From Haloarcula japonica DSM 6131 (GTDB lineage: Archaea > Halobacteriota > Halobacteria > Halobacteriales > Haloarculaceae): a stretch of 64,000 nt of DNA. A program made the translations under genes and the position numbers. Every line of letters starts with the position of its first letter. Within the stretch, counting starts at the first letter, position 1. The notes under the pieces were generated by a model that did no database searches, was not told the DNA's origin, and worked only from the letters and a program-made list of their open reading frames with translations. The DNA lies in contig NZ_AOLY01000002.1 of the NCBI RefSeq assembly GCF_000336635.1, positions 237 to 64,236 on the forward strand. Direction: 5' to 3'. Shown here piece after piece: positions 9,764-45,108 of the stretch.

Positions 9764-10486
9764 TCACTCCCGTTCTGTACAAGAACGGTCCAGACACCGC
9801 GTCCCGCCAGCGGTTTCGAACAGCGGTAGGCCGCAGTCACAGTCGCCGACGACCACGCCGGACGGTATCGAGAAGCCGGTGTCACAGTCGGGATAGTGTT
9901 CACAGCCGGCGAGCAGGCCGCCACGGCGGAGAATCAGCAGGTCGCCGTCACAGTGGGGACAGTCCCACTCGCGGTCAAAAGCCGCGGTGACGGCATCATC
10001 GAGCGAGTCACACTCTCGGTCGAGACACAGTTCGAAGGCTCGGCCGCGTTCGACACGAAGCGTCGGGAGTCCGCAGTCGTCACAGCGGCCGCCAGTGACC
10101 GCGGCATCGCTCGGAATCCCATAGGCGGCGTCACAGCCGGTACAGGTGACTTCACTCCGGGCCCGGACCAGCGTTCCGGCGCAGTCGGGGCAGTCACGCA
10201 CCGGGACACCGGCGTTCGAGGCCGGATAGCGGGCACTGCCGTGTTCCTCGTGGGTGACCACCCGGAGGAGTTCGTCGCCGTCGCGGGCGGTCACCGCCCC
10301 GTCGTCGATGGTGACACTTTCAGCGCGTGTAAGCCATGCAATCGGCTGATACCCCGCGGCATCGTGGACCAAGACGGTGTTGTCGGGCTTGATCACCACG
10401 AGCACGTCGCCGCGCTGTTCCCGCTCGCGCGTTCCCTCGAAAACGGTCGTACACTCGCCGGCCATCACACGGATTCCGTCATGCAT
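9764..10486 (-). CDS. NucS-type N-terminal domain fused to four zinc ribbons
   Basis: 240 aa. Residues about 8-85 resemble the N-terminal domain of NucS/EndoMS encoded at 43942-44661: both have a G-x-CTxxxEG block, a KPDxxxLVH block (IKPDNTVLVHDAAGYQPIAW here) and a DDGxxxxR block. The RecB-like nuclease domain is absent. Instead there are four C4 zinc-ribbon units, roughly CPDC..CTGC, CDDC..CLDREC, CPHC..CEHYPDC and CDC..CLDRSC, like those at the C-terminus of bacterial topoisomerase I. I infer a DNA-binding, probably non-catalytic protein. It lies 82 nt upstream of endA on the same strand. The ATG at 10486 is used; a second Met lies eight codons in. Confidence 0.8.
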   Translation of the reverse strand: MHDGIRVMAGECTTVFEGTREREQRGDVLVVIKPDNTVLVHDAAGYQPIAWLTRAESVTIDDGAVTARDGDELLRVVTHEEHGSARYPASNAGVPVRDCPDCAGTLVRARSEVTCTGCDAAYGIPSDAAVTGGRCDDCGLPTLRVERGRAFELCLDRECDSLDDAVTAAFDREWDCPHCDGDLLILRRGGLLAGCEHYPDCDTGFSIPSGVVVGDCDCGLPLFETAGGTRCLDRSCTERE

Positions 10487-39956: not shown

Positions 39957-42767
39957 ATGGACGCTGCGCTTGGCCCGCCCGAGAAGATGGCCGAGCTCGA
40001 GGAAGACCTGACGCCGATGATGGCGCAGTACTACGAGCTGTGCCGGCAGTACGATGACGCCCTGGTCCTCTTTCAGGTCGGGGACTTCTACGAAGCCTTC
40101 TGTGCGGCCGCACAGCGGGTCGCTCGGCTGTGTGAAATTACGCTGACCCAGCGCGAGGACTCGACCGGGGAGTACCCGATGGCCGGCATCCCCATCGACA
40201 ACGCTGAGTCGTACGTCGAGACGCTGCTTGACGCGGGCTACCGGGTCGCAATTGCCGATCAGGTCGAGGACCCCGACGAGGTCAGCGGCGTGGTCGAGCG
40301 GGCAGTGACTCGGATCGTCACCCCCGGCACACTCACTGAGAGCGAACTGCTGGGCGGGGCGGACAACAATTACGTCGCGGCTCTGGCCGCCGGTGAGGGA
40401 TACGGGCTGGCGCTACTGGACATCTCGACCGGTGACTGCTACGCGACCAGTGTCGGCTCCGAAAGCGCCGTCGCCGACGAACTCAGCCGGTTCGGTCCCG
40501 CCGAGGCCATCGTCGGGCCGGACGTCGACGTGGACCGGGACGCCGTCTTCGGGCCGGCCTGTCTGGTGACGCGCTACGACGCGGATGCATTCGCCCGGGG
40601 TCGCGCCGAGGACCGCGTGGGACAGTACTTCGGCCCGCCGGAGCGTCTGCTCGCCGGCGATGCAGAAATCCGGGCCTGTGGCGGCCTGCTGGCCTACGCG
40701 GAGTACACCCGTGGGAGCAGCGGCGCGGTCGGCCCCGACGGCGAGCCGGTCGATCCAGATGTCGACCCCGCAGGCACGCTCGACTACCTCAATCACCTCA
40801 CGCGGTACGACCCGCGGGAGTACATGCTGCTCGACGCCGTGGCCGTCGAGAGCCTCGAACTGTTCGAGCGGCGCTCCGTACGGGGCCACGAGAACCGCAC
40901 GCTCGTCGATACAGTCGACGAGACGGCGTGTGCACTGGGGCGGCGGAAACTGACCGACTGGCTCCGTCGGCCGTTGCTCGACGTGGACCGCATCGAGGCC
41001 CGCCACGGCGCGGTCGCGGAACTCCAGCGCGACCCCGCCACCAGAGAGGAGCTATCTTCCCTTCTGGCGGAGGTGTACGACCTCGAACGGCTCATTTCAC
41101 GCGTGTCGCGTGGCCGGGCCAACGCCCGTGACCTGCGGTCGCTGGCCGCAACGCTGTCGGTCGTGCCGGAGATCCGGGACCGCTTAGTTGATGCCGACGC
41201 CCGCCTGCTGGCGGACCTGCACGCAACGCTGGACCCGCTGGCCGAGACCCGCGAGGAGATCGAAGCGGCAATTCGCACGGACCCGCCACAGCAGGTGACC
41301 GAGGGCGGTGTCATCTGCGAGGGCTACGACGACGAACTGGACCGGTTGCGCTCGACCGAGCAGTCGGGCAAGCAGTGGATCGACGACCTCGAAGCCAGCG
41401 AGCGCGAGCGCACCGGCGTCGACTCGCTAAAGGTCGGACACAACTCCGTCCACGGCTATTACATCGAGGTAACGAACGCCAACCTCGATGCCGTCCCCGA
41501 GGACTACCAGCGCCGCCAGACGCTGAAAAACAGCGAGCGCTACTACACGCCGGAACTCAAGGAGCGCGAGGACGAGATCCTGCGGGCCGAGAGCGCGGCC
41601 GACGACCTGGAGTACGACCTGTTCTGTGCCGTCCGGGACAAGGTGGCCGACGAGGCAGAGCGCGTGCAGGCGCTCGCCGACCGCCTCGCGCGCCTGGACG
41701 TGCTGGTCTCCTTCGCCGAGGTCGCGGCGCAGTACGACTACTGCCGGCCCACCGTCGGCGGGGACGGGATCGACATCACCGCCGGCCGCCATCCGGTCGT
41801 CGAGCGGACCGAGGACGCCTTCGTCCCCAACGACACGCATCTCGGTAGCGGGCCGCTTCGGGAGTCCGACGACCGGCAATCGAGCGATGGTGATACGGCG
41901 ACCGACGGAAAGCGCGAGGGCGAAAGCGCCCCGGCTCAGGACCCGTTTCTCGCTGTCGTCACGGGACCGAACATGAGCGGCAAGTCGACGTACATGCGCC
42001 AGGTCGCGTTGATCTGTCTGCTCGCACAGGCGGGCGGCTTCGTCCCCGCGAAGGCGGCCGACCTCCCGATTCTCGACCGCGTGTTTACCCGCGTTGGAGC
42101 CAGCGACGACATCGCCGGTGGCCGCTCAACGTTCATGATCGAGATGACCGAACTGGCGACGATTCTCGACGCGGCGACCGCTGACTCGCTGGTGCTGCTG
42201 GACGAGGTCGGCCGCGGCACGTCGACGGCTGACGGGCTTGCTATCGCCCGCGCCGTCACCGAACATCTCCACGACGAGGTCGGCGCGTACACGCTGTTTG
42301 CGACCCACCACCACGACCTGACTGCCGTCGCCGCGGCGCTGCCCAGCGCGACAAACCGCCACTTCGAGACCAGCCGCGAGGACGGCGACGTTCGCTTCGA
42401 CCACGAACTCGCACCCGGTCCCGCGGCGGCCTCCTACGGCGTCGAGGTGGCGAGCATGGCCGGCGTGCCCGAATCCGTTGTCGAACGGTCACGGGACCTT
42501 CTGGCGGATGCCGAGACGGCCGACACCGACACGGATTCCACCGTCACGGAGACGACTGGTCCGACGGAGAACGGAACAGCGGCGGGTTCAGCCAGCGAGG
42601 GTGGAGCGGACGGCCACACACAGGAGACGCTTCGAACGAACGGAGCCACCGTCGGGGGAGAGTTACCGGGGTCAGTGGCACAGCAGTTAGCGTCGCTCGA
42701 TGTCGCGACGATGACGCCGATAGAAGCGATGAACGCGCTCGCCGAGCTACAGGACCGACTCGAATAA
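39957..42767 (+). CDS. mutS: DNA mismatch repair protein MutS
   Basis: 936 aa, MutS1 type. The mismatch-recognition motif is [10 protein letters not shown] (Phe-x-Glu, about residues 40-49). Connector, lever and clamp domains follow ([17 protein letters not shown]). The ATPase has Walker [14 protein letters not shown] (about 670-682), [18 protein letters not shown], Walker [17 protein letters not shown] and FATHHHDL. A low-complexity Thr/Glu-rich segment precedes the C-terminal [17 protein letters not shown] dimerisation helix. ATG at 39957 ([10 protein letters not shown]) matches haloarchaeal MutS1; an in-frame GTG at 39906 and an ATG at 39930 are alternatives. It has no mutL neighbour in the window. 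Confidence 0.94.
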
Positions 42768-42776
42768 CAGCAGCAG

Positions 42777-43517
42777 TCAGCTATCTCCGTCAGCGGCCAG
42801 TTCCTCGTGCGGGCAGGCGAACATGGCCGTGACGAGTTTCTGTTCGGCAGCCCGTAGATGCTTGTGGAGCGTGGGCTCCGAGATATCGAGGAGTGCAGCC
42901 AGGTCCGCGGCCGTCGCCTCGCGGGGCCAACTGTAGTACCCCGCTTCGTGGGCCGTCACGAGGACCTCCCGCTGGCGGTCGGTCAGTGACTCGGTGTGGG
43001 ACGCGTAGTTCTTGAACCCGAACAGTGGGGCGATGGACTCACGCTGTTTTTTCGCTGCGAGTTCGGCCTCCGAATGGGCCGCCAGGAACGACTCGATAAC
43101 CGCAGCCGTCTCAGTTTGCCTCGGAACATCGGCTACGACAGTCCCTTGGCCATCGACACTCCGGACGGTCTGTGGTACCGCCCCGACATCTGCGAGCGAG
43201 ACAACGGGGCAGTTATCCCGCACGTCGATTTCGACGAGCCCTCCGTCGTTGGTACGCTCAAGCACCCGCGCCTCACCGCCGTTGCCGTCCTCGATGCGCT
43301 CGACAAGCCGGCTGGGGTGAGCACCCCCGACTGAAAAAAACTCCGCGTACGTGTCGTCCGTCTGCGGGAGGCATTTTTCAAGAATCACTGAACACGATTC
43401 GGCTTCAGACACCGACACAAATGGATACGACCCATCAGAGAGGGCAAACTCCACACGGGTTACCGCCCGGCTGTCGCCAAGCTGTCGGGACATACACAGG
43501 TGTAGTCGATACCTCAT
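42777..43517 (-). CDS. HTH-10 (bacterio-opsin activator type) regulator
   Basis: 246 aa. The N-terminal ~170 residues form a variable ligand or sensor part. The C-terminal HTH-10 domain is LTDRQREVLVTAHEAGYYSW followed by AADLAALLDISEPTLHKHLR and AEQKLVTAMF, the standard end of Bat-like haloarchaeal transcription factors. ATG at 43517 (MRYRLHLCMSRQ) is used; ATG at 43493 is possible. The gene is 9 nt from the mutS stop (convergent) and divergent from the HalOD1 gene, with a perfect palindrome in between (43549-43573). Confidence 0.85.
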   Translation of the reverse strand: MRYRLHLCMSRQLGDSRAVTRVEFALSDGSYPFVSVSEAESCSVILEKCLPQTDDTYAEFFSVGGAHPSRLVERIEDGNGGEARVLERTNDGGLVEIDVRDNCPVVSLADVGAVPQTVRSVDGQGTVVADVPRQTETAAVIESFLAAHSEAELAAKKQRESIAPLFGFKNYASHTESLTDRQREVLVTAHEAGYYSWPREATAADLAALLDISEPTLHKHLRAAEQKLVTAMFACPHEELAADGDS

Positions 43518-43548
43518 GAAGAATGTTGTCATGAATCGTGGTATCAAC

Positions 43549-43573
43549 GTTCACTATGCTAGCCATAGTGAAC
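43549..43573. promoter_or_regulatory. Perfect 10-bp-arm inverted repeat in divergent promoter region
   Basis: GTTCACTATG, a 5-nt centre CTAGC, then CATAGTGAAC. It lies 31 nt upstream of the HTH-10 gene start and 41 nt upstream of the HalOD1 start, in an AT-rich gap, exactly where an operator for one or both genes would be expected. Confidence 0.65.
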
Positions 43574-43614
43574 TTTACATCTTCAGGATAAATCCAGCAT
43601 GAGGTCAGAGAACC

Positions 43615-43863
43615 GTGTCTGGAATATCACCATCCGTCGTAGAAGTCCACGGCACCGACCAGTCTATCATCACCGCGGTCGTTCGTGCCGTGGCAACTGC
43701 GGAGAGACAGCCGGTCGAGAGGCTTCCGCCGCTGGCCGACAGTATCAATCCGGATGCACTGACGGCGTGCATCGCCGATTCGAACACCAGCGGACATGTG
43801 GCGTTCGACTACAGTGGCTACCGCGTGGTTGTCAATACCGATGGAACAGTCACTGTAGAGTAG
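43615..43863 (+). CDS. Stand-alone HalOD1 output-domain protein
   Basis: 82 aa, one domain. The pattern SIITAVVRAVATAERQPVER, then LPPLADSINPDALTACI, and HVAFDYSGYRVVVNTDGTVT matches HalOD1, a domain usually attached to haloarchaeal response regulators as output module. Here it stands alone. The start is GTG at 43615. It is divergent from the HTH-10 gene and convergent with nucS. The mechanism of HalOD1 is unknown. Confidence 0.85.
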   Translation: MSGISPSVVEVHGTDQSIITAVVRAVATAERQPVERLPPLADSINPDALTACIADSNTSGHVAFDYSGYRVVVNTDGTVTVE

Positions 43864-43941
43864 CGCCGCCATCCGGCTGTGTGGCAACCGCGGTAGTCGG
43901 TACAGTCGCAGGACGGACACGGGCCAAAAGCGACGTGTCAG

Positions 43942-44661
43942 TTACGGTGGCTCCAGCGAGACGAACTCCAGTCCTTTCTCGGCGAGCAACTGACGCGCCC
44001 GGTCAGTCACCGACGGAGCGACGAGGATACCCCGGACTTCAGTGTCGGCGTGCAGGTCGCGTTCTAACGCATCGACGTACCGGCCCAGCTGGCCGACTGC
44101 GTCGGGACCCACACGCCGGCGCTTGAGTTCGAGTATCGTCGTCCGGCCGTCGGCGTCCTCGCCATAGATGTCGACCGCGCCGGCGGGAGTCTCGCGCTCG
44201 GTCGCAAGCGGCGTAAAGCCCGACTCGACCAGCCCCGGTTCATCAAGGATCCGGTCTTTCAGGTCAGCCTCGGTCCCGGTGAGCGCGAGGTCTTTCGAGT
44301 CGGTCACGTCGAAGGCGGCGGCGTGAGCGACTGTCTCAAAGGTCACTTCGAGCAACTCCTCGGGGGTCGACCGCGTGGAGCGGACGACCAGCGACCCGTC
44401 GTCGACGCTGATGCTGTGTTCACAGCCCGGCGGTTGCCAGTTCACCGGTTGTTGGCCCTCGTCGGTGTGGACCAGCGCGGCCCCGTCGGGCTTGAGCATC
44501 ACGTGGCGGTCGCCAAGCCCCAGCGAACTGGCCGCTCGTCCCTCGTACTCGACCGTACAGGTACCGACGAGCGTCACCAGCGCGCCGCGGTCGGCGTTGC
44601 GCGACGCGAGGTCCAGCGCGTCAGCGGGGTCGGGGTACGTCAGTGTCTCGACGGCGGTCAC
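43942..44661 (-). CDS. nucS: Endonuclease NucS/EndoMS
   Basis: 239 aa. The N-terminal DNA-binding/dimerisation domain has LVTLVGTCTVEYEGRAASSL and HVMLKPDGAALVHTDEGQQP. The C-terminal RecB-like nuclease has GAVDIYG (catalytic Asp near 161), ILELKRRRVGPDAVGQLGRY (Glu-x-Lys near 180, Gln near 191). NucS (EndoMS) cuts both strands at mismatched bases and is tied to the sliding clamp. The C-terminus FVSLEPP lacks an obvious extended PCNA peptide. The start is GTG at 44661, 9 nt after the upstream gene's stop. mutS lies about 1.2 kb away. Confidence 0.93.
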   Translation of the reverse strand: MTAVETLTYPDPADALDLASRNADRGALVTLVGTCTVEYEGRAASSLGLGDRHVMLKPDGAALVHTDEGQQPVNWQPPGCEHSISVDDGSLVVRSTRSTPEELLEVTFETVAHAAAFDVTDSKDLALTGTEADLKDRILDEPGLVESGFTPLATERETPAGAVDIYGEDADGRTTILELKRRRVGPDAVGQLGRYVDALERDLHADTEVRGILVAPSVTDRARQLLAEKGLEFVSLEPP

Positions 44662-44670
44662 GGGTGGCGG

Positions 44671-45108
44671 TTAGCGGTCCCGGCGTAAAAAGGACGCGTC
44701 GTCGGGGCAGTGCATGGACGAGACGCGGTCTCGGAGCGACGCAAGCAGGGCACGTCGGGCGTTCGCCGGATCGGTGCCTTCGCTGTCGAGGGCGCGACAG
44801 GCCTCGTCCTTGCGGTCGACCCACCACGTCCGGAACGCATCCGGGTCGGCAGTACGGGCGAGGACGATATCGTCGAGGTCCGATAGCGTCGGATCAAGCC
44901 AGCAGACAGCGTAGGTCCGAACCGACTCGTCGAGCACGACCAATTGGTCGTAGGTAGCGTCGATGGTAGCGAGGACAGCAGCGGCCGTCCAGTCGTTCCC
45001 GAGCGGTCGGGACTGGGTGATGGGGTCGGCGTCGACACCCCAGTGTGCGAGGCGGCAGTCGTAGCGGCCATCGGGACGGGCGAGAGCCACGAGCGTTCGG
45101 CGACCCAT
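44671..45108 (-). CDS. Conserved haloarchaeal protein (DUF6735-like), upstream of nucS
   Basis: 145 aa, soluble. It starts GRRTLVALARPDGRYDCRLA and HWGVDADP, with a Trp-rich centre FRTWWVDRKDEACRALD and ends in a basic HCPDDASFLRRDR. I recognise it as a short haloarchaeal family without known function. It sits 9 nt upstream of nucS on the same strand, so it is likely co-transcribed and may be functionally linked. ATG at 45108. Confidence 0.75.
   Translation of the reverse strand: MGRRTLVALARPDGRYDCRLAHWGVDADPITQSRPLGNDWTAAAVLATIDATYDQLVVLDESVRTYAVCWLDPTLSDLDDIVLARTADPDAFRTWWVDRKDEACRALDSEGTDPANARRALLASLRDRVSSMHCPDDASFLRRDR

Follow-up and report, generated by a model that had tools for sequence, protein, structure and literature searches.

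The window, by which we mean the whole stretch of 64,000 nucleotides from Haloarcula japonica DSM 6131 that was analysed (contig NZ_AOLY01000002.1), carries a mutS gene and, in convergent orientation to it, a gene for NucS (EndoMS). Comparison across the haloarchaea shows that the linkage of these two genes is old and beyond chance, and the sequences suggest, with a probability that we put at about 0.5, that they form one module, ancestral in most haloarchaeal families, in which a particular kind of MutS (MutS-A1) recruits NucS in the place of MutL. NucS and MutS-MutL have been treated as nearly mutually exclusive, convergent solutions, the interplay of which in haloarchaea 'remains to be elucidated' (PMC5290159, PMC7776575). 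A preliminary description of the locus had singled out the pair as a candidate for an undescribed system, and our literature searches indeed found no paper that describes the linkage, an exchange of partners or the loss of a MutL interface.

The identity and closeness of the two genes, as first described, hold up. The mutS gene (39957..42767, plus strand) encodes all five MutS domains (Pfam MutS I-V) and scores 896.8 bits against the NCBIfam mutS1 model (cut-off 641.7); its FYE mismatch motif (FxE in MutS1) and its Walker A and Walker B motifs are intact, which places the product among the MutS1 proteins. The nucS gene (43942..44661, minus strand) has the NucS_N and NucS_C domains, scores 348 bits against the NCBIfam NucS model (cut-off 216), and retains the nuclease residues D164, E178 and K180 of a NucS/EndoMS protein. 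The stop codons lie 1174 bp apart and, because the genes are convergent, the pair is not an operon. No cognate mutL adjoins the window mutS. A single mutL and another mutS are encoded about 14 kb apart on a different contig; a mutL, which the preliminary description had advised looking for elsewhere, is thus present in the genome, in the company of the other MutS.

To follow the linkage, MutS was placed by tblastn in some 180 regions surrounding nucS, sampled at roughly one per genus with 80 more from named genomes; taxa are coded, Haloarcula being family f1, genus g1. After the removal of identical NucS, a MutS of the window type stands within about 10 kb of nucS in 121 loci, a figure from a sample biased to NucS relatives and set against no genome-wide baseline of gene order. 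The two genes are convergent in 120 of these loci and on the same strand in one, and the convergent pair spans 10 of the 12 haloarchaeal families that yielded a NucS, the exceptions being f4 (17 genomes) and f9; confinement to one species, which the preliminary description had said would refute its reading, does not apply. The gap is often very short (zero or overlapping in 10 loci, at most 50 bp in 28, at most 100 bp in 35). The thermosome and DUF7383 genes, which also flank mutS in the window, are retained in only 6 of the 121 loci, all from Haloarcula, and the pair has thus been kept while its surroundings changed. About ten sampled genomes have mutS-A1 and nucS apart and retain both.

Haloarchaeal MutS proteins fall into two types by the score of domain I, type A at about 119-141 bits (with one partial match at 94) and type B at about 89-104 bits, the gene for MutS-B lying near mutL. 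In families f4, f3, f9 and f11, in parts of f5 and in genera g26 and g28, MutS-A is followed directly by a mutL of its own (MutL-A); no mutL adjoins MutS-A in any other lineage examined and none directly follows any MutS-A1, adjacency in genomes beyond the fetched regions being judged from coordinates only. In the MutS tree all 59 MutS-A proteins without such a MutL (49 linked to nucS and 10 encoded elsewhere in the genome) form a single clade with a support of 100 in the Shimodaira-Hasegawa-like approximate likelihood-ratio test (SH-aLRT). This clade, A1, includes the window MutS and is nested in a grade of MutS-A from mutL operons, which belong to basal lineages. MutL-A and MutL-B form two separate deep clades (support 100), and the single MutL of genomes of the window type can therefore be assigned to MutL-B. 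The simplest history would be that MutL-A was exchanged once for NucS and that the new pairing was then inherited, the genes becoming separated later in several lineages. Genera g26 and g28, which belong to the family of the window (L298, L301, L305, L307), have a MutS-A/MutL-A operon that groups with those of f5 and have no NucS; it looks as though the MutS-NucS module was replaced there by horizontal transfer.

The co-occurrence of the genes follows the same division. In a table compiled by hand for genomes at least 90% complete, NucS is present in all 47 genomes with MutS-A1, in 19 of those with MutS-A and MutL-A (absent from 13) and in 4 of those without MutS-A (absent from 12); simple Fisher tests take no account of relatedness, and Haloarcula supplies 23 of the 47 MutS-A1 genomes, so that p values are not relied on. 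For five genomes that have one mutL and no nucS the absence of MutS-A was predicted beforehand, and it was found in all five. Joint losses of mutS-A1 and nucS occurred several times. Genus g39 (G073 and G146, both 99% complete) has a linked mutS-A1/nucS pair with neither MutL nor MutS-B; nearly all MutS-A1 genomes retain MutS-B and MutL-B. Elsewhere, an in-frame TGA interrupts one nucS gene (L157, G101:C9:37766-38476), the genome in question carrying MutS-A with MutL-A.

The NucS proteins themselves differ at their C terminus. A C-terminal tail that binds PCNA has a role in NucS (PMC8228993, PMC4929162), and the window NucS ends in GLEFVSLEPP, at the place where this tail starts in EndoMS of Thermococcus kodakarensis and NucS of Pyrococcus abyssi. 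The PCNA-interacting peptide (PIP) is absent from all 60 NucS of MutS-A1 genomes, in which a DLH motif at residues 202-204 is conserved (the His in 60 of 60); the motif is specific to this A1 group, and the window protein carries it. A second type of NucS, found in several genera, has kept the PIP, with ends that read TLTDF, KLTDF or KLSDF, and has mostly a gap at the DLH motif. The PIP is also present in G049 (TLDEF; 89% complete, with NucS and no MutS or MutL found), and a PIP-like TDLSEY ends the NucS of G085, which has no MutS-A. The second type (L149, L151, L154, L155, L156) is diverged, at about 40% identity, and in several genera accompanies the NucS that is linked to MutS; Haloarcula has only one NucS. 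The NucS of some f7 genomes (L145, L146, L147, L150, L153) gives a split alignment, its two parts separated by extra residues near positions 85-90.

One would have to ask whether linkage and co-occurrence reflect joint action at all. NucS could be autonomous, as in thermophiles and actinobacteria, with MutS-A1 having drifted to another role and the linkage being an ancient gene order that has stayed undisrupted. NucS alone does cleave mismatches in other organisms (PMC8228993), the convergent genes are not co-transcribed, the genomes with separated genes have kept both, and some NucS exist without MutS-A. It is nevertheless the link between mutS and nucS that stayed when other neighbours were lost, and MutS-A1 has intact mismatch and ATPase motifs. 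The missing clamp tail, moreover, argues that NucS is not self-sufficient in the way of known NucS proteins, and MutS-A1 without NucS was never seen in genomes at least 90% complete. Two independent pathways are thus unlikely, while being the most serious of the alternatives.

If MutS-A1 exchanged MutL-A for another partner, the surface that contacts MutL might be expected to bear the marks. We listed the alignment columns conserved in MutL-paired MutS (MutS-B and the MutS-A of mutL operons, A2) and lost in A1 before the paper on the Escherichia coli structure was consulted, and mapped them to E. coli by sequence alignment. Under strict limits, and with A2 represented by 11 full-length rows only, four of about 840 columns have this pattern (280, 738, 785 and 815); the reverse pattern, loss in A2 with retention in A1 and B, occurs in no column among the same 840 or so. 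Column 815, the counterpart of M759 of E. coli MutS (MutL interface 1), is Leu in 10 of 11 MutS-A from mutL operons and in 10 of 11 MutS-B. In MutS-A1 neither Leu nor Met occurs there; the residue is D, H, E, S, R or another one and is polar in 57 of 59 proteins, the window protein having Asp815 (codon 42399..42401, plus strand). In E. coli the triple mutant P595A/I597A/M759D has no repair left and is impaired in binding MutL, whereas M759D alone has no such effect, and residues 673-686 are protected upon MutL binding (PMC4521584). Column 738, the equivalent of H682 within that segment, is His in all 22 MutL-paired MutS that were aligned and is lost in A1; the window has Asp738 (42168..42170, plus strand). 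At column 785, the equivalent of E. coli Y729 beside the ATH motif, all 58 proteins of the MutL-less clade have His, so that the window reads FATHHH in place of FATHYH (His785, 42309..42311, plus strand). When columns are ranked by the variability gained in A1, columns 813, 815 and 738 take places 3, 5 and 6 of 780. A relaxed connector domain was considered as a further sign of MutL loss and was rejected, its conservation in A1 being at least that in MutS-A from mutL operons. Neither PIP nor beta-clamp motifs were found in any type of MutS.

The A1 clade no longer has a dedicated MutL and has lost some of the residues conserved at the MutL contact, which points to one module rather than two rival systems and makes doubtful the division of labour between alternative systems that the preliminary description had proposed. 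The same residues bear on a second alternative, that MutS-A1 uses MutL-B in trans, repair being canonical and NucS a bystander or backup. The near-universal retention of MutS-B and MutL-B in MutS-A1 genomes would suit such sharing, as would the constraint still seen on the connector domain. The polar residue in place of M759 speaks against it, as does genus g39, which has MutS-A1 and no MutL whatsoever, and we consider MutL-B sharing quite improbable.

In the module as we picture it, MutS-A1 would detect the mismatch and, as an ATP-bound clamp, would recruit or activate NucS, which would then make the incision that MutL makes elsewhere; recruitment of NucS would no longer proceed through the PCNA tail. 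The MutS-NucS contact, the order of action and the role of DUF6735 (see below) are what we infer.

Several observations weigh against this picture. The tail is also missing from the 17 NucS of f4, a family that keeps MutS-A with MutL-A and whose NucS, without linkage, form a clade of their own (support 97). Loss of the tail is therefore not tied to loss of MutL-A, and was rejected as a mark exclusive to MutS-A1 genomes. On the MutS side, column 738 is Lys in Taq MutS, and the site is thus not universal; the equivalent of I597 is kept in MutS-A1, and the connector domain, which is the second MutL contact, is not relaxed. Among the genomes, those of g39 also carry a second NucS, and NucS occurs without MutS-A in three f5 genomes (G085, G093, G108) and in G276. 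The last has lost MutS-A and kept NucS; in three further sampled members of its genus both are gone, a hint that the loss went step by step. Adjacency itself would allow one deletion to remove both mutS-A1 and nucS. Finally, deletion of mutS1A, of both mutS1 genes or of mutL in Halobacterium salinarum gave no mutator phenotype (PMC2816208); this species has two nucS genes (PMC9997560), and the phenotype was possibly masked by the second NucS. This result and the NucS of f4 are the weightiest of the contrary data.

The H. salinarum result would also fit a third alternative, that MutS-A1 and NucS do act jointly, in recombination or gene conversion between chromosome copies (heteroduplex rejection) and not in post-replicative repair. 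Gene conversion in Haloferax volcanii suffers when nucS, mutS1b or either mutL is deleted (PMC11276520). These data come from lineages with MutL-A or a second NucS, however, and the present data do not discriminate between substrates. A role confined to recombination seems to us quite improbable, and a module of MutS-A1 and NucS that serves mismatch repair is the reading retained in what follows.

A third gene probably belongs to this module. A DUF6735 gene (Pfam; 44671..45108, minus strand) lies directly upstream of nucS on the same strand, its end 9 bases from the nucS start. An iterated profile run on the fetched regions gave 76 members, and 71 of these are directly upstream of nucS on the same strand, including at loci from which MutS has moved away. 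The arrangement is found in most families and was not found in f4 and most of f7. The AlphaFold model of the DUF6735 protein is confident (predicted local distance difference test, pLDDT, 89), and an attempt to identify the protein by fold gave no match in the PDB. One good viral match, a structural one, was obtained, to protein R4TG93 of Haloarcula hispanica tailed virus 2 (E 1.2e-3, probability 1.00).

The two genes that fill the mutS/nucS junction of the window (42768..43941), which is 0-100 bp long in many genera, are judged to be incidental inserts of the Haloarcula lineage and to lie outside the module. They encode a BAT and HTH_10 regulator (42777..43547, minus strand) and a small HalOD1 protein (43615..43863, plus strand). 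A close HTH_10 gene (above 55% identity) occurs in part of Haloarcula only, about half of the genus being without it; several Haloarcula species have HalOD1 alone at the junction, and a related genus (L067) has a diverged HTH_10 version. In other lineages the junction is empty or houses a PEBP protein, EamA or GntP transporters, KaiC, DoxX or an IS605 transposase. Recurrent insertion of regulators was considered and rejected, the inserts being unrelated to one another. Of the five genes whose shared order the preliminary description had proposed to trace, mutS and nucS (10 families) and DUF6735 hold together, while HTH_10 and HalOD1 do not. The switch that it had suggested would have HTH_10 and HalOD1 regulate mutS and nucS in opposite directions. 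It has in its favour that both regulators separate mutS from nucS in the window, as they do in several Haloarcula species, but with HTH_10 missing from roughly one half of Haloarcula and the gap elsewhere taken up by unrelated genes it can hardly be credited.

At some distance from the pair, positions 9764-10486 of the window (minus strand) encode a 240-amino-acid protein in which the N-terminal (PH-like) domain of NucS is fused to zinc ribbons, the nuclease domain being replaced. A similar weak NucS_N match is present in nearly all sampled Haloarcula genomes.

If MutS-A1 does work with NucS, the two systems would be sets of recombinable parts rather than alternatives, and MutL would be replaceable. 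This would also offer an explanation for the missing mutator phenotype of Halobacterium and for the lack of a clamp tail in haloarchaeal NucS. It is then tempting to speak of a third kind of mismatch repair, with a single origin through the exchange of MutL-A for NucS, in which the MutS clamp recruits a PCNA-independent NucS directly and DUF6735 is possibly an accessory; we advance this tentatively, with somewhat more doubt than belief.

Coexistence of NucS with MutS-MutL is known from Halobacteria and some Deinococcus-Thermus (PMC5290159; PMC7776575; also PMC9997560), and in H. salinarum the locus tags of nucS (VNG_0171) and mutS (VNG_0172) are consecutive (PMC9997560). These papers treat the systems as parallel, and we found in them no mention of linkage, partner exchange or interface loss. 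With canonical MutS-MutL, as in E. coli, Bacillus subtilis and the haloarchaeal pairs MutS-B/MutL-B and MutS-A2/MutL-A, MutS-A1 shares all domains, the FYE motif and the Walker motifs; it differs in having no cognate MutL and in the loss of four conserved positions, including the equivalent of the E. coli M759 contact. With NucS/EndoMS of Thermococcus, Pyrococcus and actinobacteria, the window NucS shares the two-domain build and the D-E-K residues, scoring 188 bits to T. kodakarensis EndoMS (5gke), and differs in its missing clamp tail, its linkage to mutS, its usual upstream DUF6735 and its DLH motif. Nor does the genome, with two mutS and one mutL, match NucS/EndoMS repair as known from organisms without MutS-MutL. 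Two MutL have been reported in Haloferax and Haloquadratum and one in Natrialba, Natrinema and Natronomonas, a difference between genera (MutLa/MutLb) that was interpreted as duplication (PMC11276520); our trees place the two in separate deep clades, and the MutS clade that lacks MutL-A is precisely the one paired with NucS.

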